Shown: positions 2,258-36,012 of the stretch, piece by piece
How the letters are laid out: the number at the start of each line of letters is the position of its first letter
Numbering within the stretch: the stretch's first letter is position 1
Assembly (NCBI GenBank): GCA_036397795.1
Contig: DASWIF010000015.1
Coordinates: forward strand, 1-40,546
DNA: 40,546 nt
Source: Candidatus Saccharimonadales bacterium
Lineage (GTDB): Bacteria > Patescibacteriota > Saccharimonadia > Saccharimonadales > DASWIF01
Reading direction: 5' to 3'
Program-made: the position numbers and the translations under genes
Notes under the pieces: model-generated
Database searches by the model: none
Told to the model about the DNA's origin: nothing
The model's input: the letters and a program-made list of their open reading frames with translations, nothing else

Positions 2258-2268
2258 AGCGGGGATAA

Positions 2269-2601
2269 TTGTATCATTGGAGGGTGAGCGATTTTAAAGA
2301 CGACGTTTACGACTTAGTCTCAATCATCCCAGAGGGCAAAGTAATGACTTACGGCCAGATTGCCGCCCTGTGCGGCCGTCCACAGGCTGCCCGCATTGTC
2401 GGCGGATTGGCGCATTTTGGACCGCCAGAGCTGCCGTGGCAACGTGTTGTAAATAAAAACGGCGGTCTAGCCTCTGGTTACTATGGCGGTAAGCCAGGCC
2501 ACAAACAGGATCTAACGGCTGAAGGAGTAATCGTCGATAACAACTATCAAATCGAAATTAATAAGTATATTTGGTGGCCACCGCCAAGAGAACAAAAGTA
2601 G
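2269..2601 (+). CDS. Alkyltransferase-like protein (ATL), MGMT family without the catalytic cysteine
   Basis: About 110 residues matching the DNA-binding domain of O6-alkylguanine-DNA alkyltransferase: a Tyr motif (MTYGQIA, Tyr28), the Arg-finger helix (AARIVGG) and the active-site segment reading PWQRVV where true transferases have PCHRVV. The Cys-to-Trp change is the hallmark of ATL proteins, which bind O6-alkylguanine without repairing it and flag it for nucleotide excision repair. The start is uncertain: TTG at 2269 or GTG at 2284, the latter with GGAGG touching it, too close for a normal ribosome binding site. Four bases separate its stop from miaA. Confidence 0.85.
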   Translation: MYHWRVSDFKDDVYDLVSIIPEGKVMTYGQIAALCGRPQAARIVGGLAHFGPPELPWQRVVNKNGGLASGYYGGKPGHKQDLTAEGVIVDNNYQIEINKYIWWPPPREQK

Positions 2602-2604
2602 ACT

Positions 2605-3522
2605 ATGACCGATAAACCGTCCATTTCTAATGCTCGACTGACAGCCGCATCGACAAAGCCGTTGGTTGTTATTGTCGGCGAAACCGGCAGCGGTAAATCG
2701 TTACTGGCCTTAAAATTGGCAACGCTACATAACGGTGAAATAATTTGCGCTGACTCCAGAACCATTTATAAAGGTATGGATATAGGCACCGCTAAACCCA
2801 GCAAGGCCGATCAGGCTAAGGTAAGGCACCACCTGCTTGATATCGTCCAGCCAAACGAAATTTTTACCGTAGCTGATTTTAAGCATCGGGCTGTCAATGT
2901 CATTAATGAAATCAGGCAAAGCGGCCGCCTGCCCATTATGGTAGGCGGTAGCGGTCTGTACGTCGACTCGGTCATATTCGACTATGCTTTTAGAAGTCGA
3001 TATAACATCAAAATCAGGCAAGAATTATCGAAAAAGAACCTTATGGAGCTTAGACAATTGGCGGTTGATGAGGGATTTACAACATATTATAACAGCAGTA
3101 ATAGGCGTCATTTAGTCAGGCTTTTAGAATCTGGTGAGTCAACAAACAACGACAGAGCCCAGTTAATAAACAATGTTGTAATTATTGGCCTTTCACTTAA
3201 TCGAGCACGGCTCAGAGCCAACCTGAAGGCCCGAGTAGAGACGATGTTCAGGGCCGGTTTACGACGGGAAGTAGAAGACCTCGTAAAAAAGTATGGTTGG
3301 CAGCAAGAGGCTTTAAGCGGCATCGGTTACCGCGAATTTGAGCCATACTACCAAAAAAAGATTAGCATGTCTGACGTCAAACGGAATATATTTCAACACA
3401 GTTTAAACTATGCTAAACGACAGCGAACTTGGTTTAAGCGCAATTCCGAAATCAAGTGGTTTGACAGCCACCATAAAGTCAGTCGATATCTTAAGAAACA
3501 GTTACAAACCAAGTATAATTGA
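2605..3522 (+). CDS. miaA: tRNA dimethylallyltransferase
   Basis: Transfers a dimethylallyl group to N6 of A37 in tRNAs reading UNN codons. The 305-residue protein has the P-loop GETGSGKS at 25-32 (family usually GPTASGKS), the conserved CADSRTIYKGMDIGTAKP stretch that contacts tRNA and catalytic Asp, HHLLDIVQP, and the GGSGLYVDSV motif, followed by the C-terminal GIGYREF and KRQRTWFKRN segments. Length fits the family. It starts three bases after the ATL stop and ends eight bases before murT, so it probably belongs to a short operon on this strand. Confidence 0.95.
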   Translation: MTDKPSISNARLTAASTKPLVVIVGETGSGKSLLALKLATLHNGEIICADSRTIYKGMDIGTAKPSKADQAKVRHHLLDIVQPNEIFTVADFKHRAVNVINEIRQSGRLPIMVGGSGLYVDSVIFDYAFRSRYNIKIRQELSKKNLMELRQLAVDEGFTTYYNSSNRRHLVRLLESGESTNNDRAQLINNVVIIGLSLNRARLRANLKARVETMFRAGLRREVEDLVKKYGWQQEALSGIGYREFEPYYQKKISMSDVKRNIFQHSLNYAKRQRTWFKRNSEIKWFDSHHKVSRYLKKQLQTKYN

Positions 3523-3529
3523 AGCCTGA

Positions 3530-4816
3530 ATGAAATTTTGGCAGCGTATTACAGTTCTATTTGCGAAAACGGTTATCATCGGCCTGCGCTTGATTGGCCG
3601 TCACGGCACCGCCTTGCCCGGCCTGGTTGCTGAGCGGCTGTATCCTGGACTGTTAAGCAAGCTGATAGGCCAGTTAGAGCAAGGTGTAGTTTTAATAACT
3701 GGCACTAACGGCAAGACCACAACTGCGAAGATTGCCCGTACTTTGCTAGAGCACCGTAACTTAAGGGTTCTCTCCAACCGTTCTGGTAGCAACTTTACCA
3801 GGGGAATTCTAGCCAGCGTTATGGAACAAGCTACATGGAGCGGGCGGCTGGAGTTTGATATCGCCGTTTTTGAAGTCGACGAAGCCTATGCTCGATTGGT
3901 CGCTCGAGAAGTCAAACCGGTCGTCATTGTCGTCTTGAATGTTATGCGGGACCAGTTAGATCGGTATGGAGAGATTGATAAAACGGCTAAGTTGATTGGC
4001 CAAGCGCTCGAGCAGTCACACGCGGCGGTACTCAACGCCAATGATCGGCCCGTGGCCGACCTCGGAACTAAACTAAATGATGATAAAAGAACAACGTATT
4101 TTGGAGTTTCACCCCAGTTACAAACACTCTTACCGTCGGACGAGGGTTTGTTGGTTGGTCCCATGAAAAGTCATCGACAGCCGTCACCAGACGTACTGCT
4201 TAGGCAGTTTGATGTAAGCGGCCAAGCCGAATTTTTGGCTGACGGGTTGTCGCACAAGACAAACTTACAATTTTCAGGTATCCATAATGCCCAGAACGCG
4301 ACCGCGGCCCTGGCATTGATAAATCATCTCTATGGCGCCATAGACCCGGGGGATATGATAGCTTTGAGCCGGGTACGACCAGCCTTTGGTCGGGGCGAGG
4401 AAGTAATCATTCATGGTGTCAAAGCCCGGCTAGCCCTAATAAAAAACCCCAGTGGCTTCAACCAAAACCTAAAAGCCTTCTGCCAGCCGAAAGTCGGCGG
4501 TGTTTTAATTATCATAAATGACCGTTACGCCGACAGCCGCGACGTGTCCTGGTTGTGGGATGTGGACTTGTCACCCCTGTCTCAGATAGCGGGCCGGATT
4601 ACGGTGAGCGGTGCCAGGGCATACGATATGGCTTTGCGGCTGCAATATGAGGGTATGTTATCGGACCCCGAGATGTCACTAAGCTCAGCTCTAAAACGGG
4701 CAATCGATGCCACACCGCTAACAAAAGAACTATTGATTCTGCCGACTTACACCGCGATGCTTGAAGCTAGAAGGCTACTATCCAAAACGGCCGAATTAGA
4801 GAAAATATGGCAGTAA
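3530..4816 (+). CDS. murT: Lipid II isoglutaminyl synthase, Mur-ligase subunit
   Basis: With GatD it amidates the D-Glu residue of lipid II, giving D-isoglutamine in the peptidoglycan stem peptide. The 428 residues show a Mur-ligase ATP-binding loop TGTNGKTTT at 57-65, the central-domain FEVDEA and NVMRDQLDRYGE motifs, and the C-terminal DUF1727 block (NPSGFNQNL, then INDRYADSRDVSWLWD) whose Asp belongs to the amidotransfer site. Oddity: the Cys4 zinc ribbon known in Gram-positive MurT is absent; only one Cys (AFCQPK) exists in the protein. Overlaps gatD by 10 bp, as expected for a stoichiometric complex. Confidence 0.92.
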   Translation: MKFWQRITVLFAKTVIIGLRLIGRHGTALPGLVAERLYPGLLSKLIGQLEQGVVLITGTNGKTTTAKIARTLLEHRNLRVLSNRSGSNFTRGILASVMEQATWSGRLEFDIAVFEVDEAYARLVAREVKPVVIVVLNVMRDQLDRYGEIDKTAKLIGQALEQSHAAVLNANDRPVADLGTKLNDDKRTTYFGVSPQLQTLLPSDEGLLVGPMKSHRQPSPDVLLRQFDVSGQAEFLADGLSHKTNLQFSGIHNAQNATAALALINHLYGAIDPGDMIALSRVRPAFGRGEEVIIHGVKARLALIKNPSGFNQNLKAFCQPKVGGVLIIINDRYADSRDVSWLWDVDLSPLSQIAGRITVSGARAYDMALRLQYEGMLSDPEMSLSSALKRAIDATPLTKELLILPTYTAMLEARRLLSKTAELEKIWQ

Positions 4817-5523
4817 AGATTATTAATTTAGCCCAGCTTTATCCTCGTGAGATGAACATCTATGGAGACACCGGCAACATCAAAGTCCTTCTTTGGCGGC
4901 TTCAGCACCGGGGTTTTAAAACCGCCCTCAGGCCGCTTAATATCGGTGATAAGTTACCGGCTGATACCGATATTATTGTGGGTGGTGGCGGACAGGACTC
5001 AGGCCAGGGTAAGATCATGCCGGACCTGCTTAAAAAAGGGGATGAGCTAAGGGCGATGGCGGGTGATGGGGTGACTATGCTTTTAGTCTGCGGCTTGTAC
5101 CAGCTGTTTGGGCACCGTTTTGTAACTGACGAGCAACAAGAAATTAAGGGCATATCGGTTTTCGACGCCGAAACCTTGGCTGGCCAACGGCGGTTAATCG
5201 GTAACATTGTGGTTCAGTCGCCCTTTGGCCGATTGGTTGGCTTCGAAAACCATAGTGGATTGACCAAACTGGCAAACGATCAATTACCGCTCGGCAAGGT
5301 CATAAAAGGCCAAGGTAACGATGGTTCATCCGGAAAAGAAGGTGCGGTAATGCACAATGTTTTTGGTACCTATCTGCACGGACCAATCTTGCCAAAAAAT
5401 CCCAGATTTGCCGACGAGTTGTTATTAAGAGCGATCAAACGGCGTTACGGCGCGAGTGATTTATCCGAGATTGATGATTCGCTGGCGCTTAGAGCGGCTG
5501 ATATCGCGGCCAAACGGCCCTGA
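4807..5523 (+). CDS. gatD: Lipid II isoglutaminyl synthase, glutamine amidotransferase subunit
   Basis: Hydrolyses glutamine and feeds ammonia to MurT. The 238-residue class I amidotransferase-like (CobB/CobQ type) protein has the nucleophile Cys95 in LLVCGLYQLFG and catalytic His191 in GTYLHGP, matching the Cys94/His189 pair known for GatD. The opening INLAQLYPREMNIYGDTGN is characteristic. It starts inside the murT 3' end (10-bp overlap). The gene ends at 5523; the next gene has its own promoter, so the murein operon appears to close here. Confidence 0.93.
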   Translation: MAVKIINLAQLYPREMNIYGDTGNIKVLLWRLQHRGFKTALRPLNIGDKLPADTDIIVGGGGQDSGQGKIMPDLLKKGDELRAMAGDGVTMLLVCGLYQLFGHRFVTDEQQEIKGISVFDAETLAGQRRLIGNIVVQSPFGRLVGFENHSGLTKLANDQLPLGKVIKGQGNDGSSGKEGAVMHNVFGTYLHGPILPKNPRFADELLLRAIKRRYGASDLSEIDDSLALRAADIAAKRP

Positions 5524-5533
5524 ACAATTATTA

Positions 5534-5562
5534 TTACAAAACCTACCACTTCTTGTTACAAT
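5534..5562 (+). promoter_or_regulatory. Sigma70-type promoter of the wHTH gene
   Basis: TTACAA (5534-5539), 17-bp spacer, TACAAT (5557-5562). Transcription would start near 5569, just before the AAGAGGTGA ribosome binding site at 5571-5579. Confidence 0.6.
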
Positions 5563-5589
5563 GGTGATAATAAGAGGTGAATTGGCTCC

Positions 5590-6183
5590 ATGATTGAGCA
5601 GCTCTTTGGTTCAAAAACCAGAGTAAAATTACTCCAGTTGTTCATGAGTAATCCCAACCGGGCATTTTATGTCCGTGAAATTACTCGGAAAATTGACGAG
5701 CAAATAAACTCGGTTCGGCGTGAACTTGCTAACCTGCTTAACATTGGCATAATTAAGTCTGAAGAGAGTGAAAACAAACTTTATTACGAGGTTAATCAAA
5801 AATATCCTCATTACGCTTCGCTCAAATCAATCTTCACCAACAAAAAAGCTATGGCCCAAAGCGAATTTAAGCTACCACAAAGCGGTATCGCGGCAAAACT
5901 GTCTGAGCTAGGATCGGTCGAGCTGGCGATTTTAAGCGGTACGTTTACGCGAGACGACCAGGCTGGCGCCGATCTATTGATAGTAGGTGATGTTAATCGA
6001 AGCAAATTAGCTAAGTTAATCCAAGAACTTCAGGAAGAAGAAGGCCGCGAACTGGACTTTGCGGTCATGTATCCGGAGGATTTTGACTACCGTCTGAGTG
6101 TTAAAGACCGGTTTATTATTAATTTATTGGGTTCTAAAAAGACTATCGTGATCGATACAAAATCACGCATAAAACAGGAGTAG
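5590..6183 (+). CDS. Winged-helix transcriptional regulator with C-terminal nucleotidyltransferase-like domain
   Basis: A 197-residue protein. Residues 1-75 form an ArsR/MarR-like winged helix (FGSKTRVKLLQLF, then FYVREITRKI and a basic recognition helix). The rest (about 85-190) resembles the degenerate nucleotidyltransferase-fold partner found fused to such winged helices in CPR genomes; the GS...DxD metal motif is not intact (LSGTFTRDDQAGADLLIVG). Probable DNA-binding regulator; ligand and targets unknown. ATG with AAGAGGTGA ten bases upstream. Four bases separate it from the MBL-fold gene, so the two are probably co-transcribed. Confidence 0.75.
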   Translation: MIEQLFGSKTRVKLLQLFMSNPNRAFYVREITRKIDEQINSVRRELANLLNIGIIKSEESENKLYYEVNQKYPHYASLKSIFTNKKAMAQSEFKLPQSGIAAKLSELGSVELAILSGTFTRDDQAGADLLIVGDVNRSKLAKLIQELQEEEGRELDFAVMYPEDFDYRLSVKDRFIINLLGSKKTIVIDTKSRIKQE

Positions 6184-6187
6184 ATAA

Positions 6188-6808
6188 GTGGAAATTTCGT
6201 TTTTAGGCGCCAATGCGCTAGCGCTCAATACCAAAACGGCTAAAATAATCGTCGACCCAGCGGTGCCGGGCTTGAAAGTCGACGCCGCAAAAGCTGATAT
6301 CATCTTGTTGACTCAACCATTTGACATCAGCCCAAAAGAGAGCCAGCTGGTCATAAATACGCCCGGTGAATATGAAGCCAAAACCATATCAATCAAAGGC
6401 ATTGCCTCGCGGGCTCATGTAGAAGACGACGGCCAGCAAGGCGCGACTATTTATCGAATCGACACCCCAGCAGCCCGGGTCGGCATAGTCGGTCACATCC
6501 ATCCCAGTTTGTCAGACGAACAACTTGAGGCTCTGGGGACACTTGACGTTTTGATAGTCCCGGTTGGCGGGCACGGCTACACGCTCGACGCTGAAGGTGC
6601 CGCCCAAGTTGTACGTGCCATTGAACCTCGGGTGGTCATTCCTACCCATTTTGCCGACAAGTCGATCAAGTACGAAGTCCCCCAGTCCGAACTAAAGGAG
6701 TTTACCGATGAGCTCGGAGTTCCACTGCAGGAAGAACAGCGTTACAAAATAAAGCCCGGCTCGTTACCCGAGCAGCTAACAGTAGTTGTTTTGAGCCGGA
6801 CCAGCTAA
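6188..6808 (+). CDS. MBL-fold (UlaG-like) protein without the canonical metal motif
   Basis: A 206-residue protein of the UlaG/YycJ-like metallo-beta-lactamase fold group: the start MEISFLGANALAL, the strand IIVDPAVPG, and the late VIPTHFADKS segment are typical. Where active enzymes carry HxHxDH, this one reads LLTQPFDISP, so the main zinc site is missing and hydrolase activity is doubtful. A histidine in VGGHGYTLD and another in IPTHF remain. Starts with GTG four bases after the regulator stop, so it may be the regulator's partner. Function not known. Confidence 0.72.
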   Translation: MEISFLGANALALNTKTAKIIVDPAVPGLKVDAAKADIILLTQPFDISPKESQLVINTPGEYEAKTISIKGIASRAHVEDDGQQGATIYRIDTPAARVGIVGHIHPSLSDEQLEALGTLDVLIVPVGGHGYTLDAEGAAQVVRAIEPRVVIPTHFADKSIKYEVPQSELKEFTDELGVPLQEEQRYKIKPGSLPEQLTVVVLSRTS

Positions 6809-6843
6809 TATAAGCTTAAGCCCAAACAATCTATTTAAATTAA

Positions 6844-7047
6844 TTACTTGGCGTTTTGAAGAACACCTTTTTTCTTAAGCGTACGGATAGCTTGGGTGGA
6901 TAATTTCATAGTAACTTTCTTGCCATCCATCATGAAAGTTTTCTTCTGTAAGTTTGGCTTCCAGACTTTTTTAGTCTTTTTCTGGGAAAACGGAACATTG
7001 TGCCCAAATTGTTTGCCTTTGCCGGTGATATCGCATTTCTGTGCCAT
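6844..7047 (-). CDS. rpmB: 50S ribosomal protein L28
   Basis: 67 residues beginning MAQKCDITGKGKQFGHNV with the GKxxxxGxxVSxxxxKT-like pattern, then RxWxPNLQ-like KKVWKPNLQKK, and the C-terminal TKAIRTLKKKG-like region (STQAIRTLKKKG). A structural protein of the large ribosomal subunit. Single-gene unit on the minus strand with its own good promoter at 7081-7109. Confidence 0.95.
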   Translation of the reverse strand: MAQKCDITGKGKQFGHNVPFSQKKTKKVWKPNLQKKTFMMDGKKVTMKLSTQAIRTLKKKGVLQNAK

Positions 7048-7080
7048 TTAATGTTTTCCCTAAAACTTAGCAGATTAGAT

Positions 7081-7109
7081 ACTACTGTTTATACCCGTAT
7101 CTGTCAACT
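7081..7109 (-). promoter_or_regulatory. rpmB promoter
   Basis: On the minus strand: TTGACA (7109-7104), a 17-bp spacer and TAGTAT (7086-7081), followed by about 30 bases of leader to the rpmB ATG. Confidence 0.75.
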
Positions 7110-7134
7110 GACTGGCAATTTAGACAAATTGTTA

Positions 7135-7140
7135 TAATGA
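7135..7140 (+). promoter_or_regulatory. -10 box placing a leaderless start for the M50 gene
   Basis: TATAAT ends seven bases before the ATG at 7147, so transcription should begin at or next to the start codon. No convincing -35 is seen. Confidence 0.5.
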
Positions 7141-7146
7141 GCGGCG

Positions 7147-7770
7147 ATGATTGAACTTATTATTATCATAGGCGGCATTTTATTGTCGATTACCATCCAC
7201 GAGGCCGTTCATGCTTTCACCAGTCATTGGCTAGGCGATGACACCGCTATGCGCTTGGGTCGTTTAACCCTTAACCCCCTGGCCCATATTGACCCTTTTT
7301 CGACTATCCTCTTGCCTCTTGTTCTGGTGGCTTTAAACTTCCCACCGTTTGCGGCAGCTAAACCGGTGCCGTTTAATCCCAGCCGGGTCAGGGGTGGCGA
7401 GTACGGTGCGGCGCTAGTCGGCGTTGCCGGGCCGCTGTCTAATTTGCTGATCGCAGTTTTGGTGGGCTTGTGGGGCAGGTATTTTATTGGGTTTGACGGC
7501 GGGGTGGTATCAGACATTCTTGGTCTGTTAGTCCAGCTAAACTTGGCTCTTTTTGTCTTTAATATGATTCCTTGGCCGCCGCTCGACGGTTCGCGTCTGC
7601 TGTATGCCTTTGCCCCTGATGGCCTGAGGCGGATAATGTCCCAAATAGAAAGCTTGGGTCTAGCTGGTATTGGTGTGTTTATGTTCGCGATCTTTCCTCT
7701 GTTATCGCTGACGTTTGTAAGGGCCGTAGAAGTATCATACGAGCTTATCACTGGCGTACATTTGCTATAA
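7147..7770 (+). CDS. Site-2 protease family (M50) membrane metalloprotease
   Basis: A 207-residue integral membrane protein. The zinc motif is HEAVH (His18, Glu19, His22) in the first transmembrane helix, and the third zinc ligand region is NMIPWPPLDGSRLL near residues 140-153, as in the short SpoIVFB-like/Rv-type M50B group without a PDZ domain. Other hydrophobic segments lie around 45-60, 90-110 and 170-190. It cleaves substrates inside the membrane; the substrate is unknown. The stop codon overlaps the -10 box of the downstream 6S-like RNA. Confidence 0.9.
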   Translation: MIELIIIIGGILLSITIHEAVHAFTSHWLGDDTAMRLGRLTLNPLAHIDPFSTILLPLVLVALNFPPFAAAKPVPFNPSRVRGGEYGAALVGVAGPLSNLLIAVLVGLWGRYFIGFDGGVVSDILGLLVQLNLALFVFNMIPWPPLDGSRLLYAFAPDGLRRIMSQIESLGLAGIGVFMFAIFPLLSLTFVRAVEVSYELITGVHLL

Positions 7771-7771
7771 T
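7766..7771 (+). promoter_or_regulatory. -10 box of the 6S-like RNA
   Basis: A perfect TATAAT overlapping the M50 stop codon; transcription would start at about 7778, the first base of the closing stem. The -35 region is poor. Confidence 0.6.
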
Positions 7772-7777
7772 AAGTAA

Positions 7778-7929
7778 GCCCTGCGATAGTGGCGTAAATG
7801 GGACTTTTTCCTAACAAATTATTATCGGGAGCCCAAATGGTTTGTCGCCGTGGCAACGAACTGCGGGTACCCACCTGGCTTTCTCAGGAATCAAGTTTCA
7901 CCTGCGTCCCTAGTCGCGGGGCTGTTTTA
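7778..7929 (+). ncRNA. ssrS: Probable 6S RNA
   Basis: Likely mimics an open promoter and sequesters sigma70 RNA polymerase. What is seen: a -10 box exactly one helix-turn upstream; 5' GCCCTGCGA (7778-7786) pairs with 3' TCGCGGGGC (7914-7922), making a long closing stem; the tail TGTTTTATT follows directly, acting as terminator. The interior has an internally looped rod: GGGAGCCC/GGGTACCC arms, an apical GTTTGT...ACGAAC hairpin, and the CCTGG...TCAGG small hairpin on the 3' side of a large central bulge, the 6S architecture. No reading frame fits. The class is called from structure and remembered sequence style, so another structured RNA is possible. Confidence 0.6.
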
Positions 7930-7979
7930 TTAAAAGTGAAATGACGGGGAGCCGGGCATTGATCGCTCAGCAGAGTGTC

Positions 7980-7997
7980 ATCGCTTGGCCAAGCGAT
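7980..7997. repeat. 18-bp perfect palindrome between 6S-like RNA and tRNA-Pro
   Basis: ATCGCTTGGCCAAGCGAT is perfectly self-complementary. GATCGCT at 7961-7967 can also pair with AGCGATC at 7992-7998, so two hairpins compete. No T-tract follows. Could be an operator or an RNA processing site; function unknown. The rest of 7930-8054 shows nothing else. Confidence 0.5.
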
Positions 7998-8032
7998 CGA
8001 AACTCAAACTGCCAATTAGTGTTTTAGGGGCC

Positions 8033-8060
8033 TTGGTTCGCGCGTATAAATCAGTACAAT
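8033..8060 (+). promoter_or_regulatory. tRNA-Pro promoter
   Basis: TTGGTT (8033-8038), 16-bp spacer, TACAAT (8055-8060), eight bases before the mature tRNA 5' end. Confidence 0.55.
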
Positions 8061-8067
8061 AAGCTGG

Positions 8068-8143
8068 TCGGGGATTGGCGCAGTGGTAGCGCGCACGGCT
8101 GGGGGCCGTGAGGTCGCTGGTTCGAATCCAGTATCCCCGACCA
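8068..8143 (+). tRNA. tRNA-Pro(GGG)
   Basis: Seven-base acceptor stem TCGGGGA/TCCCCGA, D-arm GGCGCAGTGGTAGCGC, anticodon stem CACGG/CCGTG with loop CTGGGGG (anticodon GGG), T-arm with GGTTCGAATCC, and an encoded CCA at 8141-8143. Every part of the cloverleaf is intact. Confidence 0.96.
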
Positions 8144-8171
8144 AAACAAGATAAATAACAGGGTACTAAAT

Positions 8172-8609
8172 ATGACAACTGTAGAGCAAAACACAACAAC
8201 ACATGACCATTTGCAAATTTTCACCGATGGTGGATCGAGAGGAAACCCCGGTCCGTCGGCATCTGGTTATGTCATTATGACTAGTCAAGGCGACCTGCTC
8301 GACCAAGGTGGAGAGTACTTGGGCGTCACCACTAATAACCAGGCCGAATATCAAGCCGTTAAGTTGGCTCTTGAAAAAGCGGCGGAATTTAAGCCTAAGA
8401 AAATTGAGTTTTTTATCGACAGTGAGCTAGTCGTCAAACAAATGAATGGTCAATACCGAATTAAAAACCGGGACTTATGGCCTATACACGCGGCCATAAA
8501 ACAGCAGGTAGCCCAGTATCAATTAGTTAGTTTTGTCCATGTCAGGCGGGAGCTTAACAAGCTGGCCGATAAGGAGGTCAATAAAATATTGGACGAGCAG
8601 GCTGCTTGA
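8172..8609 (+). CDS. rnhA: Ribonuclease HI
   Basis: Removes RNA from RNA-DNA hybrids (primers, R-loops). The 145-residue protein carries all four metal-binding acids: Asp19 (FTDGGSRGNPGP), Glu59 (TTNNQAEYQA), Asp83 (FFIDSELVVKQ) and Asp133 (NKLADKEVN). Length and order are those of single-domain bacterial RNase HI, without the basic handle insertion typical of E. coli. It sits 28 bases after tRNA-Pro, so it may share the tRNA transcript. Its last codons overlap the -35 of rnpB. Confidence 0.95.
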   Translation: MTTVEQNTTTHDHLQIFTDGGSRGNPGPSASGYVIMTSQGDLLDQGGEYLGVTTNNQAEYQAVKLALEKAAEFKPKKIEFFIDSELVVKQMNGQYRIKNRDLWPIHAAIKQQVAQYQLVSFVHVRRELNKLADKEVNKILDEQAA

Positions 8610-25463: not shown

Positions 25464-27088
<1,625 letters not shown>

Positions 27089-27810: not shown

Positions 27811-27945
27811 TAACTTAAAGATAGCAGAAACTGAGCTTGTTAATAAGAGGTATCTTAAGTAGAATAGCGGCGGTTCAAAACCGTCATGGTTGGTCAAAAC
27901 TAGGGAGCGCAGTTAGCCGTTTGGACAACCATATGGAAGAAACAC

Positions 27946-28007: not shown

Positions 28008-28084
28008 GGGGCATTAGCTCAGTTGGCTAGAGCACCTGCTTTGCAAGCAGGGGGTCGTCGGTTCGAATCCGACATGCTCCACCA
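28008..28084 (+). tRNA. tRNA-Ala(TGC)
   Basis: Acceptor GGGGCAT/ATGCTCC, D-arm AGCTCAGTTGGCTAGAGC, anticodon stem CCTGC/GCAGG with loop TTTGCAA (anticodon TGC), T-arm GGTTCGAATCC, encoded CCA. A classical 16S-23S spacer tRNA. Confidence 0.97.
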
Positions 28085-28143: not shown

Positions 28144-28171
28144 TAGCTCAGTTGGTTAGAGCGCGTCACTG
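28144..28171 (+). pseudogene. 5' fragment of tRNA-Ile, broken at the anticodon
   Basis: 28 bases identical to positions 28214-28241 of the intact tRNA-Ile, covering the D-arm and 5' anticodon strand, and ending right after the first anticodon base. The acceptor strand before it is degenerate, so it cannot fold as a tRNA. Confidence 0.85.
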
Positions 28172-28190
28172 TTCAGACCTTAATAAGTAA

Positions 28191-28295
28191 GTCAATGCCA
28201 GTTGGAGGGGCTGTAGCTCAGTTGGTTAGAGCGCGTCACTGATAATGACGAGGTCCCCGGTTCGAGTCCAGGCAGCCCCACCAACTGTTATTGAC
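28191..28295 (+). other. Extended stalk around tRNA-Ile
   Basis: GTCAAT and CAGTTGG (28191-28205) pair with CCAACTG and ATTGAC (28281-28295), with two mismatches between. The tRNA sits at the tip of this stem; the 3' arm includes the encoded CCA. Confidence 0.6.
28207..28283 (+). tRNA. tRNA-Ile(GAT)
   Basis: Acceptor GGGGCTG/CAGCCCC, D-arm AGCTCAGTTGGTTAGAGC, anticodon stem CGTCA/TGACG with loop CTGATAA (anticodon GAT), T-arm GGTTCGAGTCC, encoded CCA. Intact and flanked on both sides by broken copies of itself. Confidence 0.97.
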
Positions 28296-28330
28296 GAAAC
28301 ATGCTGTGTCGAGTCCAGCTCGACTTGAGT

Positions 28331-28434
28331 TACGAGGTCCCCAGTAAAGCTCGCTGATTTGACGGACAGTTTATCAGCTCGCTATGCTGTATCAAGCGGC
28401 AGTTTGACACTAGTTGAATCCAGGCAGCCCCATC
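28331..28434 (+). pseudogene. Split 3' fragments of tRNA-Ile
   Basis: TTACGAGGTCCCC near 28331-28344 matches the variable region, and TTGAATCCAGGCAGCCCCAT (28413-28432, then CA) matches the T-arm to CCA end with three changes. About 65 unrelated bases separate them. Together with the upstream 5' fragment they make a second, disrupted tRNA-Ile around the intact one. Confidence 0.7.
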
Positions 28435-28455
28435 ATTTCATTTTAGGAGCTCACC

Positions 28456-29379
28456 ATTCCCAGAGCCGAGTACGCTATTACCAGAGACGGATACCTAAAA
28501 GCAGTAAAGTTTGAGAACGCGGAAAAAAATAAATCATCGTTTTGGACTAAACGAAAGTTGGGCGTATTAGCCGTAGCTTTAGTTTTTGCTGCAAGCAATG
28601 CGGACGAAGTCAGCCGTTGGAGCCAATATGATTCGGACGGCCAGATCGTCTTACCGCCTGCTGGCTGCGAGATTGACGGATATCCCATGGACAACGAGCC
28701 AAAAAAGACGGCTGAAACACCGTTGATTGGCACCAAATCAGCTGCCAGACAGTTTACGGCCAGCAGTATAAACCTAGAGAAAATAGTAACCCAAGGTGTC
28801 GAGTACATGTATTCGGCGGTCGAGCACTTCACCATGGACCTATCAGGGATCGAAGTGGTCATACATGCGCCTAGCGGTGTAGAGATAGACCAAATAAAAT
28901 TTGAAGAGTCGTTTCACGCGCCGCTTTCAAACGAAATAGAATATTCACATCCGGAAGTCAATCAGCTTATAGAATGCTTCCGCCGAGATCTAATAGTGCA
29001 GAAAAAGCACGCTGGCAGCGTCTACCACGTACACATTGCACCAGCTGGGCACTGCATCAAAGGGATGCGCTTCCAGCCAATAAACCAAGTCGAGAGATGC
29101 GACGCATCTGGGGCTACCTTGCCACAGATAGAAGTAAGTTTTCTGGGGATAGATCTAGTTAAATACAACTTAATGATGTTAAGTACGCCTCAAACAAACA
29201 GGACGGCCAGCCAATCAATATCAAAAACACTTTTACACGAAACCATTCATGCCTATTTAACGCTAGAAGAAGTGCCGCTCCGTTTAGATCCGGACGAAAA
29301 GCTGGTTAAGCACGTTGAACAGGTTGTTATAAAAACTGTATATCCCGACGGCGTGCCTATAGCCATAAAATATCCTTGA
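28456..29379 (+). CDS. Secreted or membrane-anchored HExxH metallopeptidase-like protein in the rRNA operon
   Basis: Zinc motif HETIHAYL at residues 261-268, in the helix after SKTLL, with a possible third ligand in KHVEQ about 25 residues on; otherwise no family is recognised. The first ordinary start is TTG at 28558, but that cuts the signal segment. An in-frame ATT at 28456 has AGGAG six bases upstream and adds 34 residues, including basic TKRK directly before the hydrophobic stretch LGVLAVALVFAASNA, so I take ATT as start (307 residues). Cysteines in the mature part suit an exported protein. It lies between tRNA-Ile and 23S on the rRNA strand and ends before an intrinsic terminator. Substrate unknown. 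Confidence 0.7.
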   Translation: MPRAEYAITRDGYLKAVKFENAEKNKSSFWTKRKLGVLAVALVFAASNADEVSRWSQYDSDGQIVLPPAGCEIDGYPMDNEPKKTAETPLIGTKSAARQFTASSINLEKIVTQGVEYMYSAVEHFTMDLSGIEVVIHAPSGVEIDQIKFEESFHAPLSNEIEYSHPEVNQLIECFRRDLIVQKKHAGSVYHVHIAPAGHCIKGMRFQPINQVERCDASGATLPQIEVSFLGIDLVKYNLMMLSTPQTNRTASQSISKTLLHETIHAYLTLEEVPLRLDPDEKLVKHVEQVVIKTVYPDGVPIAIKYP

Positions 29380-29672: not shown

Positions 29673-30340
29673 AATGCAATTTCCCAAATCGTTTTGCCGC
29701 GTTCGGCCTGCTTGCTGGCAGAGCCAGCAACTCTGCCGATCGCTCATGGCGCATCGCATCGTCAGATGTTTACGGTGCTCACTCTCTGTACTTTACTGTA
29801 CAGTTCGTTCGAGCTCCGCACATCTTCCTTGCGCTGCACTCATGCAAAACAATTTGGAATAGATAGATTCGTAGCGATTGGCTTGGATGTAGCACAAGGA
29901 GAATTCGAGAAGTGTACTGAGGCGTACTAACGTACTCCGAGGGAGCCTCGCAGAGTTCGACGCAGTGATACGCCAAGAGTTTTACAGTGCAACCGGCTCT
30001 GCCGGCTGGCAGGTAAAACGGCCAAACGTTACGAAAACGTAAAAAGTTACTCAAGGGCACGCGATGGATGCCTTGACATAAGACACCGATAAAGGACGTA
30101 GCAGTCTGCGATAAGCTTCGGGGAGCTGACAAGCAAGCTTTGATCCGGAGATGTCCGAATGGGGAAACCCGGCTAGGGTCATGCCTAGTCACTATGCGTT
30201 GAATATATAGGCGCATCAGAGGTAAGCGCGGGAACTGAAACATCTTAGTACCGTGAGGAAATGAAAGTAACAACGATTCCGGTAGTAGCGGCGAGCGAAC
30301 CCGGAAGAGCCCAAACCTTACTTGTTTTCAAGTTAGGTGC

Positions 30341-30427
30341 TTCACACAGGAACTTTCAAACATTTACCATTTCTCATTTGAAATCAATGAAAAATGATAA
30401 TTGTAAATTGAAAATTCTTGTGTGAGG
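30341..30427 (+). repeat. 23S insertion 1 (domain I)
   Basis: A single long AT-rich hairpin: TTCACACA pairs with TGTGTGAG, TTTCAA with TTGAAA, ATTTAC with GTAAAT. Contains the shared words CATTTACCATTT and CTCATTT. Confidence 0.75.
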
Positions 30428-30761
30428 CGCCCCTTGAATAAGGTGGCAGCCGAACACAAGTAACGGGGTTGTGAGAACCAAACGACCAGGCAGGAATACT
30501 CGAGGTTCAATCGAGTCGTCCTGCTTGCGACGAAGCACTGCTATAAGCTTCGATGGAGTTACAAATCGTATGGCTAGCAGAAGTGGCTGGAAAGCCAAGC
30601 CAAAGAGGGTGAAAGCCCCGTACGCGAAAGCCATGCGACTTTAGATTTGGTAACAGTTCGACCTTAAAACCGAACTTCTCGAGTAGGACGGGACACGTGA
30701 AACCCTGTCTGAATCTGGGAGGACCACCTTCCAAGGCTAAATATGTCTTATGATCGATAGC

Positions 30762-30797
<36 letters not shown>

Positions 30798-30849
30798 GGG
30801 AGGGGAGTGAAATAGAACCTGAAATCACGTGCCTACAAGGAGTCGGAGC

Positions 30850-30992
30850 GGGCTCTTCATTGCTGAAGAGCATATTCCATATAGCAAATAACATATAGCA
30901 AAGATTTAGCATATGACATATGACATATGTTATATCTCTGTAATATGACAATTGTAATTTGTAATATGGGCTCATCACCAGTGATGAGCCCG
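30850..30992 (+). repeat. 23S insertion 2 (helix 25, classical IVS site)
   Basis: Hairpin GCTCTTCA/TGAAGAGC, an AT-rich palindrome with CATATTCC, CATATGACATATG and ATATG repeats, then hairpin GGGCTCATCAC/GTGATGAGCCC. Flanks match E. coli 23S around 545, where intervening sequences occur in many bacteria. Confidence 0.8.
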
Positions 30993-31100
30993 TGACGGCG
31001 TGCTTTTTGTAGAACGATCCAGCGAGTTAATTTCTGTGGCGTCAGGTTAAGCGGTTAAAACCGCGGAGCCGTAGTGAAAGCGAGCCTTAATAGGGCGCAT

Positions 31101-31243
31101 TACATGAGACAATACCGAGAGTTTTTCAGTTAGGCTTTGTTACTCATAAATAAAATTTTACGAATTTACTTCGGAAAATTTTATCCTTTTTTGGAAAAAG
31201 AGCAGCGAAGCGATGAGAAAAAACCTTGGTTTTGTCTCATGTA
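31101..31243 (+). repeat. 23S insertion 3 (domain II, near E. coli 650)
   Basis: A perfect 12-bp outer stem TACATGAGACAA (31101-31112) / TTGTCTCATGTA (31232-31243) encloses about 120 nt with an inner TAAAATTTTACG/AAAATTTTATCC helix. Does not share the ATTTACC vocabulary. Confidence 0.75.
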
Positions 31244-31757
31244 GAGTCGCAGGGATTAGACCCGAAACCGGGTGACCTAACCATGGGCAGGTTGAAGCGA
31301 GCGTAACAGCTCGTGGAGGACCGCACCAGTACACCTTACAACGTGTTTGGATGACCTGTGGTTAGCGGTGAAATGCCAATCGAACCCGGAGATAGCTGGT
31401 TCTCCTCGAAATAGCTTTAGGGCTAGCGTCACGAACGTAGTTTGCGGGGGTAGAGCTCTGTTTAGGGATGGGGCGCTTACAGCGTACCCACTCTTGACAA
31501 ACTACGAATACCGCAAAAATTCATCGTGGCAGTCAGAACGGCGGGGCTAAGCTCGTCGCTCAAAAGGGAAACAGCCCAGACCACCAGCTAAGGTCCCTAA
31601 ATATATGCTCAGTGGGAAACGAGGTGGGGTTTCATAAACAGCGAGGATGTTGGCTTAGAAGCAGCCATACATTTAAAGAGTGCGTAACAGCTCACTCGTC
31701 AAGAGACCCTGCGCGGAAAATGTAACGGGGCTTAAGCATATTACCGAAGCTGTGGAA

Positions 31758-31883
31758 CCAGTGCTTTGCACTGGAACTGGCAACTGGCAACTAACAACTA
31801 TCAAGCAACTATTAATCGTTAAAAGTTAATAATTTGTTTGGTGGTTGACGGTTGTTAATTGATAGTTCCAGCGCAGCGCGCTG
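31758..31883 (+). repeat. 23S insertion 4 (helix 45, classical IVS site)
   Basis: Hairpin CCAGTGC/GCACTGG, AT-rich arms (GGCAACTAACAACTATCAA against TTGACGGTTGTTAATTGATA), then hairpin CCAGCGC/GCGCTGG. Flanks match E. coli 23S near 1170, the second classical IVS site. Confidence 0.8.
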
Positions 31884-32177
31884 GTTGGTAGAGGAGCGTT
31901 CCTCGGGCACTGAAGGTCGAGCGTGAGCAAGACTGGAGCGCGGGGAAGTGAGAATGCTGGAATGAGTAACCATATGTGGAGTGAAAATCTCCACCGCCGA
32001 AAGAGCAAGGTTTCCTGGGCGATGTTTATCAACCCAGGGTTAGTCGGTCCTAAGCCGAGGCGTGTAGCGTAGGCGATGGACAACGGGTTAATATTCCCGT
32101 ACCGGTTATATTGTTGCGTGCTAGTGACGCGGCATGGTAACCCGAGCGGTCTCATGGTTATGACCGTTTAAATGTCT

Positions 32178-32323
32178 AGCGCTTCGCACTATGTGCTTCA
32201 GCGCTTATATGTCAGATAGCAGATTCCATATTGCATAGATTTTGCATATAACAGATAACAAATGCTATATGCCAAATGCTATACGACATATGAAGCGGAG
32301 CATGGAGTGCGGAGCGTAAAGCA
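32178..32323 (+). repeat. 23S insertion 5 (domain III)
   Basis: Hairpin AGCGCTTC/GCTTCAGCGCT followed by an AT-rich palindrome (ATATGTCAGATAGCAG, TTGCATAGATTTTGCAT, ACGACATATGAAG) and a GC-rich close. Located in the variable helix 58-59 region. Confidence 0.7.
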
Positions 32324-32521
32324 TGAATAAAACTGCGCGTTAAGCGCGGAATTCGGGTGACCCAAGCTGACCAGAAAAGCTGGCAAGTTTATAGATATAG
32401 CCGTCCGTACCGAAAACCAACACAGGTGCTCAGGTCGAGTAGACCAAGGCGTACGAGCGAACCTTCGTTAAGGAACTCGGCAATACAGCGACCGTAACTT
32501 AGGGATAAGGTCTGCCCCGGC

Positions 32522-32642
32522 GCGTCTCACTGGATGAGACGCACGGTATCAAGGAACTGGTATACAGGAACAAGGAAGACTCATTTTCCATATTCCCAGA
32601 TACTGATTCCCGTATACTGTGCGCCTCTCTTGTGAGGCGCAC
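32522..32642 (+). repeat. 23S insertion 6 (helix 63)
   Basis: Hairpin GCGTCTCA/TGAGACGC, then a helix of GGTATACAGGAA against CCCGTATACTG with TTTTCCATATTCC between, then hairpin GCGCCTC/GAGGCGC. Confidence 0.75.
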
Positions 32643-32819
32643 TGGGGCCGCAGCAAAAGAGTCCAGGCGACTGTTTACCAAAAACACAGGTCTCTGCTAA
32701 CACGAAAGTGGATGTATAGGGGCTGACTCCTGCCCGGTGCCGGAAGGTTAAGGAAGCGGATGTATGTCTGCGACTGAAGCCCCGGTGAACGGCGGCGGTA
32801 ACTATAACCGTCCTAAGGT

Positions 32820-33517
32820 AGAATCGCTGCCTTAGTAAAATTGAACTATATGCTGGAAACCCCGTGGATCTGACGGTACTATGGTATATTTATTCCTTAG
32901 AATAGTATGCCAAGTGACAATCCGGTCAGTGCGGACAATCAGCAGGGAAGACTCAGTTCACAGTGGATTGTTGGGTTTGCCGATGGAGAAGGATGTTTTT
33001 CTGTCAGTATCTTCAAGAATAGAACCAGTAAATTTGGCTACCAGGTGTTTCCGGAATTCGTGATAACCCAAGGCGCCAAAAGCCAGGCTGTTCTCAAGGA
33101 CATACAATCATTTTTCGGGTGCGGGAATATTTACGAGAACAAACGTAAAGATAACCACCGCGAAAGTTTGTATCGGTACTGCGTCAGGTCTAGAAAAGAC
33201 CTGCTGGAAACAATCATCCCTTTCTTTGAAGCCAATCATTTGCGTACCGCTAAGCGATCAGATTTTAAGACGTTTAGCATGGTCGTAAGGATGGTTGAGA
33301 ACCAACAACACATGGCCAATTCCGGTCTAAATCGGATTAGGCGGCTGGCCGGTTCTATGAACCGGCAGAAGCGAAGAACTAGAGAACCCTCAGAGACTAC
33401 ACGTTCAATACGCAACATAAACCATGTAGCGTAAAGATATAGTCCGATCTCTATGGCGACATAGAGGATGCAAAACACGAGAGTGCATCGTAAAAACAAC
33501 TCTAATTAGTCTATTTG
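32820..33517 (+). other. Group I intron at 23S position 1931 (L1931)
   Basis: Upstream exon ends CCTAAGGT and downstream exon starts AGCGAAATTCC, which placed together restore the normal sequence around E. coli U1931. The internal guide GCCTTAG (32829-32835) pairs with exon CTAAGGT with the required U-G at the splice site, and the intron ends in G. The 3' core has AAGATATAGTCC (P7 region) near 33434-33446 and a CTCTATG/CATAGAG P9-like hairpin. The LAGLIDADG gene lies in a peripheral loop. The L1931 site also carries LAGLIDADG-encoding introns in Thermotoga. Confidence 0.92.
32907..33434 (+). CDS. LAGLIDADG homing endonuclease, single motif, in the L1931 intron
   Basis: 175 residues with one LAGLIDADG motif (WIVGFADGEGCFSVSI, residues 20-35), then FPEFVITQ and the LAGLIDADG_1 pattern up to ENQQHMANSGLNRIRRLA. 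A single motif implies a homodimer that cuts intron-less 23S genes near position 1931. The 3' end of the frame runs into the intron core (stop within the P7-proximal GCGTAA), a compact overlap of protein and ribozyme. ATG at 32907 chosen; no strong ribosome binding site. Confidence 0.9.
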   Translation: MPSDNPVSADNQQGRLSSQWIVGFADGEGCFSVSIFKNRTSKFGYQVFPEFVITQGAKSQAVLKDIQSFFGCGNIYENKRKDNHRESLYRYCVRSRKDLLETIIPFFEANHLRTAKRSDFKTFSMVVRMVENQQHMANSGLNRIRRLAGSMNRQKRRTREPSETTRSIRNINHVA

Positions 33518-33556
<39 letters not shown>

Positions 33557-33790
33557 TGGAGTAACGATCTGGACACTGTCTCAACGAAGGACTCGGTGAA
33601 AGTGCATTGGCGGTAAAGATGCCGTCTGTCCGCACCAGGACGAAAAGACCCCGTGGAGCTTTACTACAACTTGACATTGAGTCGGGGTGTATGTCGTGCA
33701 GCATAAGTGGGAGACTTTGAAGCGGATGCGCCAGCGTTCGTGGAGTCGACAAGTGAAATACCACTCTTCATATACTTTTACTCTTACGGG

Positions 33791-33945
33791 AGCCACAAAT
33801 TGTGGAGCAATTCTTAGGCATTTAACATTTTTCATTTTGCATATTTCATAGATTTGTCATATGACATTTGGCACATCTTTGGCATATGAAATCTGGCATA
33901 TGGTATCTGCTGGAATTTGGTCCCCAGTTTCTGGTTTCCGGACCG
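33791..33945 (+). repeat. 23S insertion 7 (helix 79 region)
   Basis: Hairpin CCACA/TGTGG, then AT-rich GGCATTTAACATTTTTCAT and CATATGACATTTGGC repeats, then a GGTCCCC...GGACC close. Shares the ATTTAACATTTTTCATTT and CATATG words with insertions 1, 2, 5 and 8. Confidence 0.75.
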
Positions 33946-34120
33946 TGTCTGGCGGGTAGTTTAACTGGGGCGGTTGCCTCCCAAAGAGTAGCGGAGGCGT
34001 TCAAAGGTTGGCTAGTCTCGGATGGAAATCGAGATGATAGTGCAAACGCATAAGCCAGCTTGACTGCGAGGGCTACAACCCAAGCAGGTACGAAAGTAGG
34101 AGTTAGTGATCCGTCGTTCC

Positions 34121-34248
34121 GTACGCTCTTCACTGCGTGAAGAGCATTTACCATTTTTCAATTTACATTTTTCATTTATGGAAAATACCGACAATGAGAA
34201 TTGAGAAACGATCAATGAAAATTACTCAGCGCGTAGCGATGAGCGTAC
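34121..34248 (+). repeat. 23S insertion 8 (domain V, helix 87-88 region)
   Basis: Outer GTACGCTC/GAGCGTAC stem, hairpin GCTCTTCA/TGAAGAGC, then ATTTACCATTTTTCAATTT and its partner CAATGAGAATTGAGAAACG. The hairpin plus ATTTACC start is nearly the same as in insertions 2 and 9, although these lie in different rRNA domains. Confidence 0.8.
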
Positions 34249-34273
34249 ATGAAAGTGGGATTGACGACGCAAT

Positions 34274-34304
<31 letters not shown>

Positions 34305-34347
34305 TATAGCGCCCAATAGTTCACATAGACGGCGCTGTTTGGCACCT

Positions 34348-35183
34348 TAAACATTGGGGTGCTGCAGGAGCAATCCTGCACCAACAATGTGGCTTATAAC
34401 GGTGAAACCCTAATACCTTTTGTGAAGTATAATAAGAGGTAAGGGCAATACCGTGGGAAGTCTAACGTCAGCACAAAACGCGATTTTAGTGGGTAGTCTT
34501 TTAGGTGATGGAACATTACGCCGGCAAGGCAATCGATTGAATGCTTTGCTCGAGGTAAATCACGCCTACAAGCAGAAAGATTATGTAGATTGGAAATATG
34601 GATATTTCCAGGACTACATACTTGCTAAACCCAAATCACGCCTCGGCAGAGGCACAAGAATCGCATATCGGTTCACAACCCGTAGTTTGCCGTTGTTTAC
34701 GGTTTACTACGAGCAGTTCTACCGAAACGGTAAGAAGATAATCCCGCTGGATTTGAAACTTGATCCGCTATCCTTGGCTGTTTGGTTTATGGATGACGGA
34801 ACCAGGATTCGCTCAGCTTATTATCTGAACACCCAGCAATTTACTTTGCCAGAACAAAAGTTCTTACAAAGTCTATTGTTGAAAAGTTTTGGCCTAGAAT
34901 CAGCTTTGAACCGAGACAAACATTACTTCAGGCTACGATTTACTATAGCTAGCTCAAGGGATTTGCATAATCTAATCGAGCCATACGTAGTAGGATCCAT
35001 GAGGTACAAGCTGAATAATGACCCCGTAACGACTGAGTCGAAAGACGAGATTCCGGTTATTTTGCCGGAATAACACGCCACCTCCTGTCATAAGAAAAGT
35101 TTAGATATGGCCTATCGGTCTAAGTTTAAGCGACAGGGAGAAGATATAGTCTACGCCATATGAAAATATGGAATTAACGACAG
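34348..35183 (+). other. Group I intron at 23S position 2500 (L2500)
   Basis: Upstream exon ends TTTGGCACCT and downstream exon starts CGATGTCGGCTC, restoring the peptidyl-transferase sequence around E. coli U2500. Internal guide GGGTGCT (34357-34363) pairs with exon GGCACCT with U-G at the splice site; the intron ends in G. The 3' core has AGAAGATATAGTC near 35139-35152 and a CCATATGAAAATATGG hairpin. Confidence 0.92.
34453..35073 (+). CDS. LAGLIDADG homing endonuclease, double motif, in the L2500 intron
   Basis: 206 residues with two LAGLIDADG motifs, ILVGSLLGDGTL (11-22) and LAVWFMDDGTR (108-118), the pattern of the LAGLIDADG_2 family (PF03161), and therefore probably acting as a monomer. 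It would cut intron-less 23S genes near position 2500. GTG start at 34453, with GAGGTAAGGG 8-17 bases upstream. It is of a different subfamily from the L1931 enzyme, so the two introns were acquired independently. Confidence 0.9.
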   Translation: MGSLTSAQNAILVGSLLGDGTLRRQGNRLNALLEVNHAYKQKDYVDWKYGYFQDYILAKPKSRLGRGTRIAYRFTTRSLPLFTVYYEQFYRNGKKIIPLDLKLDPLSLAVWFMDDGTRIRSAYYLNTQQFTLPEQKFLQSLLLKSFGLESALNRDKHYFRLRFTIASSRDLHNLIEPYVVGSMRYKLNNDPVTTESKDEIPVILPE

Positions 35184-35250
35184 CGATGTCGGCTCATCAT
35201 ATCCTGGGGGGGAAGCACCTCCCAAGGGTTCGGCTGTTCGCCGATTAAAA

Positions 35251-35292
<42 letters not shown>

Positions 35293-35474
35293 TTATATCC
35301 GGTGTGGACGCAAGGAAACTTGAGGGGAGTCTTCTCTAGTACGAGAGGACCGAGAAGAACGAACCGCTGGTGTACGGGTTGTGGTACCAACTGCATTGCC
35401 CGGTAGCTACGTTCGGACAGGATAAGCGCTGAAAGCATCTCAAGCGCGAAGCCCACCCCAAGATTAGGTTTCCC

Positions 35475-35645
35475 GCAGCTTCTCACTTGCGTGAGAAGTA
35501 TTTACCATTGACCATTTTGCAAATAGCATTAATATTTCATCTGGCATTTTTCATTGCGGTCGCAATTGTTAAAAGCTACATGATAAATAAATGTAAATTG
35601 TGAATTGTAAAATGATAATTGCTCGTCGCGTGGGCGAGGAGCTGC
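35475..35645 (+). repeat. 23S insertion 9 (helix 98 region)
   Basis: Outer GCAGCT/AGCTGC pairing, hairpin CTTCTCA/TGAGAAG, then TATTTACCATTGACCATTTTG and its partner, then hairpin GCTCGTCGC/GGGCGAGGAGC. Shares the hairpin plus ATTTACC pattern with insertions 2 and 8. Confidence 0.78.
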
Positions 35646-36012
35646 AGAGCCCCCTGAAAGACTATCAGGTTGATAGGCGCTAGGTGTAAGTGCGGTAACG
35701 CATTCAGCCGAGGCGTACTAATAGGGCCATTGACTTTTTACGGCCAGGAAATTTTGGTCGCAACACCTGCCCATGAACCAAGTTCATGGCCCGTGTTGCA
35801 TGCGATGCATTTCTTCGTTAGAAGCTTGCATGCTTCGGGCGGCAGTACTTTTGTACAGCCACCCCAGCGCTTCGCTTCTGCCTCGAACTGCATTCGCCCA
35901 AAATTCCCTGGTATAAAGCTAGGATTTTGTAGTTGGATCCCATCCAACCTCAACTCCCTGGTAACAGGTAAATTGCATAACCAGAAATTTCGCATACGTG
36001 CGAGATTCTGGA

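Follow-up and report, generated by a model that had tools for sequence, protein, structure and literature searches.

tRNA-Ile(GAU) genes nested within tRNA-Ile genes broken at the anticodon in Saccharimonadales and other CPR bacteria

Recognition of the anticodon arm is common among tyrosine integrases. In the part of the Islander database account considered here (PMC4383910), the anticodon loop figures as one of the usual crossover sublocations. The known system closest to the arrangement described below is tRNA-dependent lysogeny, for which the excerpted text of Guerrero-Bustamante and Hatfull (2024, PMC10865867) gives a core of 8-11 bp, a tRNA gene that is not rebuilt and a cognate tRNA borne by the element; the authors speculate there that the incoming tRNA could itself become the site of another integration. 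Here we analyze a stretch of 40,546 nucleotides from a Candidatus Saccharimonadales bacterium (GenBank assembly GCA_036397795.1, contig DASWIF010000015.1; referred to as the window), in which an intact tRNA-Ile(GAU) gene lies inside a second tRNA-Ile gene broken at its anticodon, and compare it with similar nests in other genomes. Among the listed results of a full-text literature search, with subscription journals mostly outside its scope, no account of tRNA genes nested in one another in bacteria of the Candidate Phyla Radiation (CPR) came up.

The nest in the 16S-23S rRNA spacer of the window

The window carries an rRNA operon with a spacer of 2953 bp that holds a tRNA-Ala and a tRNA-Ile gene (Table 1). 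ARAGORN finds a single, intact tRNA-Ile(GAU) in the window, and across the assembly as a whole (G000, of 779 kb, 80 contigs and 95% completeness) it was likewise the only match of this kind seen; the other identifiable genome-wide matches are tRNA-Ala(GGC), tRNA-Met and the outer 5' half. An earlier note, made from the letters of the window, had described this gene as nested within a broken tRNA-Ile, with a 28-base exact copy of the 5' half ending after the first anticodon base on one side and pieces of the 3' half on the other, and all three statements hold. The upstream copy ends at G34 and has an E-value of 2.5e-8 in the spacer, its 7-nt acceptor strand being degraded, and the 3' pieces follow in order downstream. 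Scores of 28.5 for the 5' piece and 16.5 for the 3' terminal piece compare with a maximum of 13.5 among 30 dinucleotide shuffles of the flanks; the remaining two 3' pieces (13.5 and 12.0) do not exceed this value and draw their weight only from their order and from the relatives. A further match to tRNA-Ile at 28284-28318 (25/35) is weak and not significant.

Table 1. Features of the window around the nested tRNA-Ile genes.
Feature	Position	Strand	Remarks
16S rRNA gene	25484-27086		
Segment resembling a tRNA-Ala T arm	27868-27888		score 13.0, shuffle best 12.5; at the start of a doubtful minus-strand ORF
tRNA-Ala(UGC)	28008-28084	+	ARAGORN; upstream spacer partner, un-nested
Outer tRNA-Ile, 5' half	28144-28171	+	positions 8-35, D arm and 5' anticodon arm, end CACTG; 28/28 against the intact tRNA
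Insert, left arm	28172-28206	+	
Intact tRNA-Ile(GAU)	28207-28283	+	CCA encoded
Insert, right arm	28284-28330	+	small hairpin: 17-nt GTCGAG..CTCGAC segment, z -3.7
Outer tRNA-Ile, first 3' piece	28331-28345	+	variable region and 5' T stem; 28332-28345 = positions 42-55, 13/14
Second insertion, in T loop of outer 3' half	28346-28414	+	69 nt, by alignment
Outer tRNA-Ile, last 3' piece	28415-28435	+	T stem, acceptor strand, CCA decayed to TCA; 28416-28435 = positions 58-77, 18/20
SprT-like metallopeptidase ORF	28456-29376	+	Pfam PF10263 below cut-off, E 0.0014; in the 16S-23S spacer, no obvious ATG start
23S rRNA gene	30040-35742		stretched to 5.7 kb; two LAGLIDADG endonuclease ORFs, 32907-33434 and 34453-35073

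The two arms of the insert are partly complementary (28191-28205 with 28281-28295, 13/15, counted by eye). The whole-arm duplex reaches -14.2 kcal/mol, a value matched by 78/300 shuffles (0.025 with fixed flanks), and taken alone this pairing is weak evidence. The second insertion, in the T loop of the outer copy, has a weak hairpin tendency (z -1.7, 14/200 shuffles as low). The metallopeptidase gene downstream, which the earlier note had pointed out as a neighbour, looks unrelated to the nest. Its relatives occur in 2/391 other genomes of the order, in ordinary chromosomal neighbourhoods with no tRNA within 1.5 kb, and one scan of genome contigs returned none; we therefore rejected the ORF as cargo of the insert.

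Nests in other genomes, their break point and their arms

Nests of one common order (5' half, short arm, intact tRNA-Ile, short arm, 3' half) are found in eight genomes of the order, namely at the window (G000), L010 (G014), L007 (G032), L092 (G078), L062 (G081), L059 (G093), L058 (G097) and L127 (G125), and outside the order in Nealsonbacteria (L110), Kerfeldbacteria (L112 and L114) and Parcubacteria (L113). Every nest contains an intact tRNA-Ile(GAU). Seven of the eight in the order are those of the 78 order tRNA-Ile loci with an outer half broken at the anticodon (7/78: the window, L007, L010, L058, L059, L062 and L092), a non-random sample in which likeness to the window tRNA decided the choice of about half of the loci and diversity that of the others, L084 and L085 come from one genome, and the duplicates L105-L108 were left out. 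Five further loci of the order (L012, L013, L014, L072 and L086) hold a shorter 5' relic, and L127 came from a pattern search. tRNA-Ile-like matches are present in 230/392 genomes; L093 and the L022-L033 group (except L025) have no intact tRNA-Ile. G125 has two tRNA-Ile(GAU) loci, the nested L127 and the plain L199 (C1:734500-736419). In L041 (G032 C2:208000-222000), positions 1444-8586, the rRNA spacer holds tRNA-Ala and the nested tRNA-Ile in reverse orientation relative to 16S and 23S.

When 84,980 species genomes were scanned for an outer 3' half placed shortly after the end of a tRNA, 15 matches came up. Five of them adjoin an intact tRNA-Ile, all in CPR (Saccharibacteria, which the order contains, Nealsonbacteria, twice Kerfeldbacteria, Parcubacteria), and ten have no tRNA beside them. 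The nest rates are lower bounds because this pattern misses longer arms and other stem sequences. In a phylum-wide scan 2/361 genomes matched, one with the Nealsonbacteria nest (locus L130, with the junction as in L110) and the other, which was discarded, with coding-like sequence without a tRNA. A second pattern based on the 5' half matched 5/392 genomes, comprising four nests and one match without a tRNA. None of the 66 tRNA-Ala genes taken as control is nested; isolated fragments were the only finding there (for example in L055 and L092).

The breaks fall at the anticodon, usually at GA^T. Most outer 5' halves have G34 or A35 as their last base, and most outer 3' halves have T36 as their first (L007, L010, L059, L062, L110, L113 and L114), some break positions and arm pairings having been read by eye; in L059, L110 and L112 the outer 5' half shows more decay or stops earlier. 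In L092 the 5' half comprises positions 1-42 and the 3' half positions 35-77 (43/43), which places an 8-bp direct repeat, GATAATGA, on both sides of the insert. This is the only clean direct repeat among the nests; L062, L113 and L114 are cleanly split without one. The twelve measured inserts span 115-175 bp, tRNA included, and beyond tRNA matches no copy of the L092 insert was found elsewhere in its genome. In the window, L092, L062 and L127 the outer halves stay apart, and no functional tRNA is rebuilt at either junction.

Across 12 nests, pairing is stronger between the left and right arms of one insert than after arms are swapped between inserts (means of -16.2 vs -7.8 kcal/mol, with arm junctions picked by eye), and the pairing within an insert is matched by at most 10/300 shuffles in 7/12 nests; this is not so in the window, L007, L010, L059 and L110. 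Similar and equally strong arms flank some un-nested tRNA-Ile genes, which rules them out as a mark of nests only. L017 and L081 hold an intact tRNA-Ile between the arms of a long inverted repeat, with two or three consecutive occurrences of the right arm downstream. A search for the donor locus of every insert linked only L062 to L113 and, weakly, L007 to L010 (24 vs shuffle maximum 20). L062 and L113 share arm sequence (28 vs shuffle maxima 17 and 16) around differing tRNA bodies, and their hosts belong to different CPR groups as labelled in their records; this shared arm is the best hint of transfer.

The broken tRNA copies often carry further short inserts in their D and T loops. Short hairpins in the D, T or anticodon arms of broken copies were noted in L010, L012, L014, L055, L059, L086, L092, L112, L113 and L114. 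They may reflect the same insertion process, or decay.

Origin of the nests

The earlier note had proposed looking for an empty site in close relatives. No same-family genome is among the listed relatives of G000; for the L127 nest such a site was found within its own family. The outer flanks of L127 match those of the uninterrupted tRNA-Ile in L017 and L081 (33 and 31 vs shuffle maximum 21), and by this flank similarity the two loci are identified as the empty site. L110 and L114 are doubly nested. In L114 the middle tRNA is interrupted at GA^T by a further, newer tRNA that is intact, and its counterpart, the inner tRNA of L112 (158 bp, 75%), is unbroken. On a GyrA tree, chosen since several loci come without enough 16S and run a second time without the outgroup G566, the eight nested genomes are scattered, such that seven changes are needed, at least five of them forced by supported branches. 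G000 and G014 are sisters on this tree and may share one common event, and a single ancestral nest followed by many losses is compatible with the tree for some of the cases.

As to the source of the inner gene, the outer halves of the window, L007, L092 and L127 resemble no other tRNA more closely than their own inner tRNA, with ties being common and with the 5' half only scored for L127 and the 3' half only for L007. In L010, L058, L059, L062, L110, L112 and L114 other tRNAs are closer for at least one outer half. In L062, L059 and L110 the acceptor of the inner gene is not that of the outer one. In L062 the outer acceptor strands, GGGGTTA and TAACCCC, are complementary to one another but differ from the inner acceptor; therefore the inner gene is not a hybrid. 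Bodies are often identical between inner and outer copies where acceptors differ, which suggests later gene conversion.

Taken together, we favor insertion with rescue by a short unit bearing tRNA-Ile(GAU), directed at the anticodon of the resident gene, and assign this reading a probability of roughly 0.6. A resident tRNA-Ile(GAU) would be split in its anticodon by a short DNA consisting of a complete tRNA-Ile(GAU) between partly complementary arms, and the incoming tRNA would take over at once, so that the target is disrupted and rescued in the same event. Such an insertion would survive only because the incoming tRNA replaces a target that is usually single and presumably essential. The inner gene would be the one in use, and the old gene would decay, often with additional hairpins arising in its D and T loops. 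Because the new tRNA holds the same target, the process could repeat and give rise to nests of the Russian-doll type. The cutting would be done by a recombinase, probably provided in trans or by a lost parent element, and the arms would be its sites; by analogy with known integrases we favor an enzyme that would recognize the anticodon arm, the stem of which is an inverted repeat.

We propose more tentatively that the inserts are a compact mobile unit, a tRNA-Ile hairpin of about 150 bp that repeatedly invades the anticodon of its own gene across CPR, disrupting an essential gene and substituting for it in a single step as a natural disrupt-and-rescue element mobilized in trans. In our ranking, a compact unit moved in trans stands before the remains of a larger element, and these before a local template switch.

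The earlier note had envisaged an element that enters the anticodon loop with its own tRNA copy. Recurrence, the exact break point, the 8-bp direct repeat, the empty site and serial nesting all speak for the entry itself, whereas no integrase-bearing element was found and the inserts are short. A pattern for orphan 3' halves gave five matches among 360 genomes; four are nests, all with a tRNA within 100 bp, and the fifth, an ordinary tRNA-Thr, was set aside, leaving no integrase-carrying element at tRNA-Ile fragments. No nest contains an integrase, phage genes or a long element, and two pattern scans and one arm scan of viral contigs found no nests. These results also bear on the possibility that the nests are fossils of a large integrative element or phage with tRNA-dependent integration, which entered at a short core and of which, after deletion of the body, only the indispensable tRNA and stubs of the attachment arms were left. 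The repeat of L092 fits the core of tRNA-dependent lysogeny, and that system, as far as the excerpted source goes (PMC10865867), likewise leaves its target tRNA unrestored and brings in a cognate tRNA. We nevertheless consider this origin unlikely, as all 12 measured inserts fall into a size range too uniform for random deletion remnants, the arms are often complementary to their ends, and neither integrase-bearing intermediates (0 among 360 genomes) nor viral matches (0) were obtained.

Somewhat less probable still is an origin without any mobile element, in which replication or repair, on reaching the palindromic anticodon arm, would have changed template and placed a copy of the resident tRNA gene and its flanks within that gene, with the hairpins as further products of this error-prone process. 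In its favor, the anticodon arm forms an inverted repeat, the inner tRNA of the nest is nearest or tied nearest to the outer halves in the window, L007, L092 and L127, as a local copying error would give, one arm of L112 is an exact reverse copy of the other that runs into the tRNA, and the loops of broken copies hold many small hairpins (18 segments, picked by eye, mean z -3.5 vs shuffles). However, the acceptor differences in L062, L059 and L110, the arm sequence common to the distant hosts of L062 and L113, the absence of remnants of the original flanking sequence beside the inner copy of the window (read by eye) and the tRNA-Ala control (0/66 nested despite the same kind of arm) all argue against local copying.

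Tandem duplication of tRNA-Ile with subsequent decay of the outer copies, which the earlier note had set against its own interpretation, is very improbable: several kinds of tRNA debris do occur in these spacers, but instead of head-to-tail copies with independent break points we find a common anticodon break, so that both outer copies would repeatedly have to lose opposite halves at the same base, and the 8-bp overlap of the L092 halves and the empty site with conserved outer flanks do not fit either; the break points largely refute it. Least credible of all is a selected RNA structure, a long hairpin in which the inner tRNA would be enclosed by the arms and outer halves and which would aid precursor processing, as enclosing stems are seen in several nests and at some un-nested loci, but most tRNA-Ile loci checked have no nest, outer halves decay freely, and no rRNA was found on the examined contig stretches of L112, L113 and L114, for which reason a ribosomal-spacer structure was rejected as sole cause.

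If insertion with rescue is the correct reading, an essential tRNA gene is broken and replaced in a single insertion, repeatedly, in minimal-genome bacteria and without splicing or target rebuilding. This would point to a recombinase that reads the anticodon arm of tRNA-Ile.

Comparison with known systems

Interruption in the anticodon loop is shared with tRNA introns (group I and archaeal bulge-helix-bulge introns), from which the nests differ in that the insert holds a complete tRNA and most outer halves are degenerate; a covariance search of seven nested loci with E-values up to 1 gave no intron family. Small hairpin elements, such as the repetitive hairpin-forming elements of sponge mitochondria described in the excerpt of PMC2800124, resemble the nests as palindromic inserts that spread in a compact genome. 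They are not tRNA-bearing according to that excerpt, and their relation to the D- and T-loop hairpins is only an analogy.

With tRNA-targeting genomic islands the nests have in common the crossover in the anticodon loop and a tRNA fragment that marks the end (PMC4383910, in part). In the same partial account islands restore the host gene as a hybrid and leave one displaced fragment, with the island in between, whereas in the nests both halves are displaced, an entire gene lies between them and there is no island. In place of a hybrid of host 5' and island 3' parts, L062 shows outer acceptors that match each other.

The likeness is greatest with tRNA-dependent lysogeny, in which, in the part of PMC10865867 drawn upon here, an essential tRNA gene is split, is not rebuilt at the junction and is met by a complete incoming tRNA of the same isotype; a short shared core is a further likeness, seen here in L092 only. 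The nests differ in their size of about 150 bp, with no long insert and neither tyrosine integrase nor phage genes between the halves, in the use of tRNA-Ile(GAU), in their CPR hosts and in the serial nests seen in nature. By this analogy the nests look like compact or fossil relatives of tRNA-dependent lysogeny, which would extend the trick of actinobacteriophages to CPR bacteria and provide a natural counterpart of disrupt-and-rescue designs.
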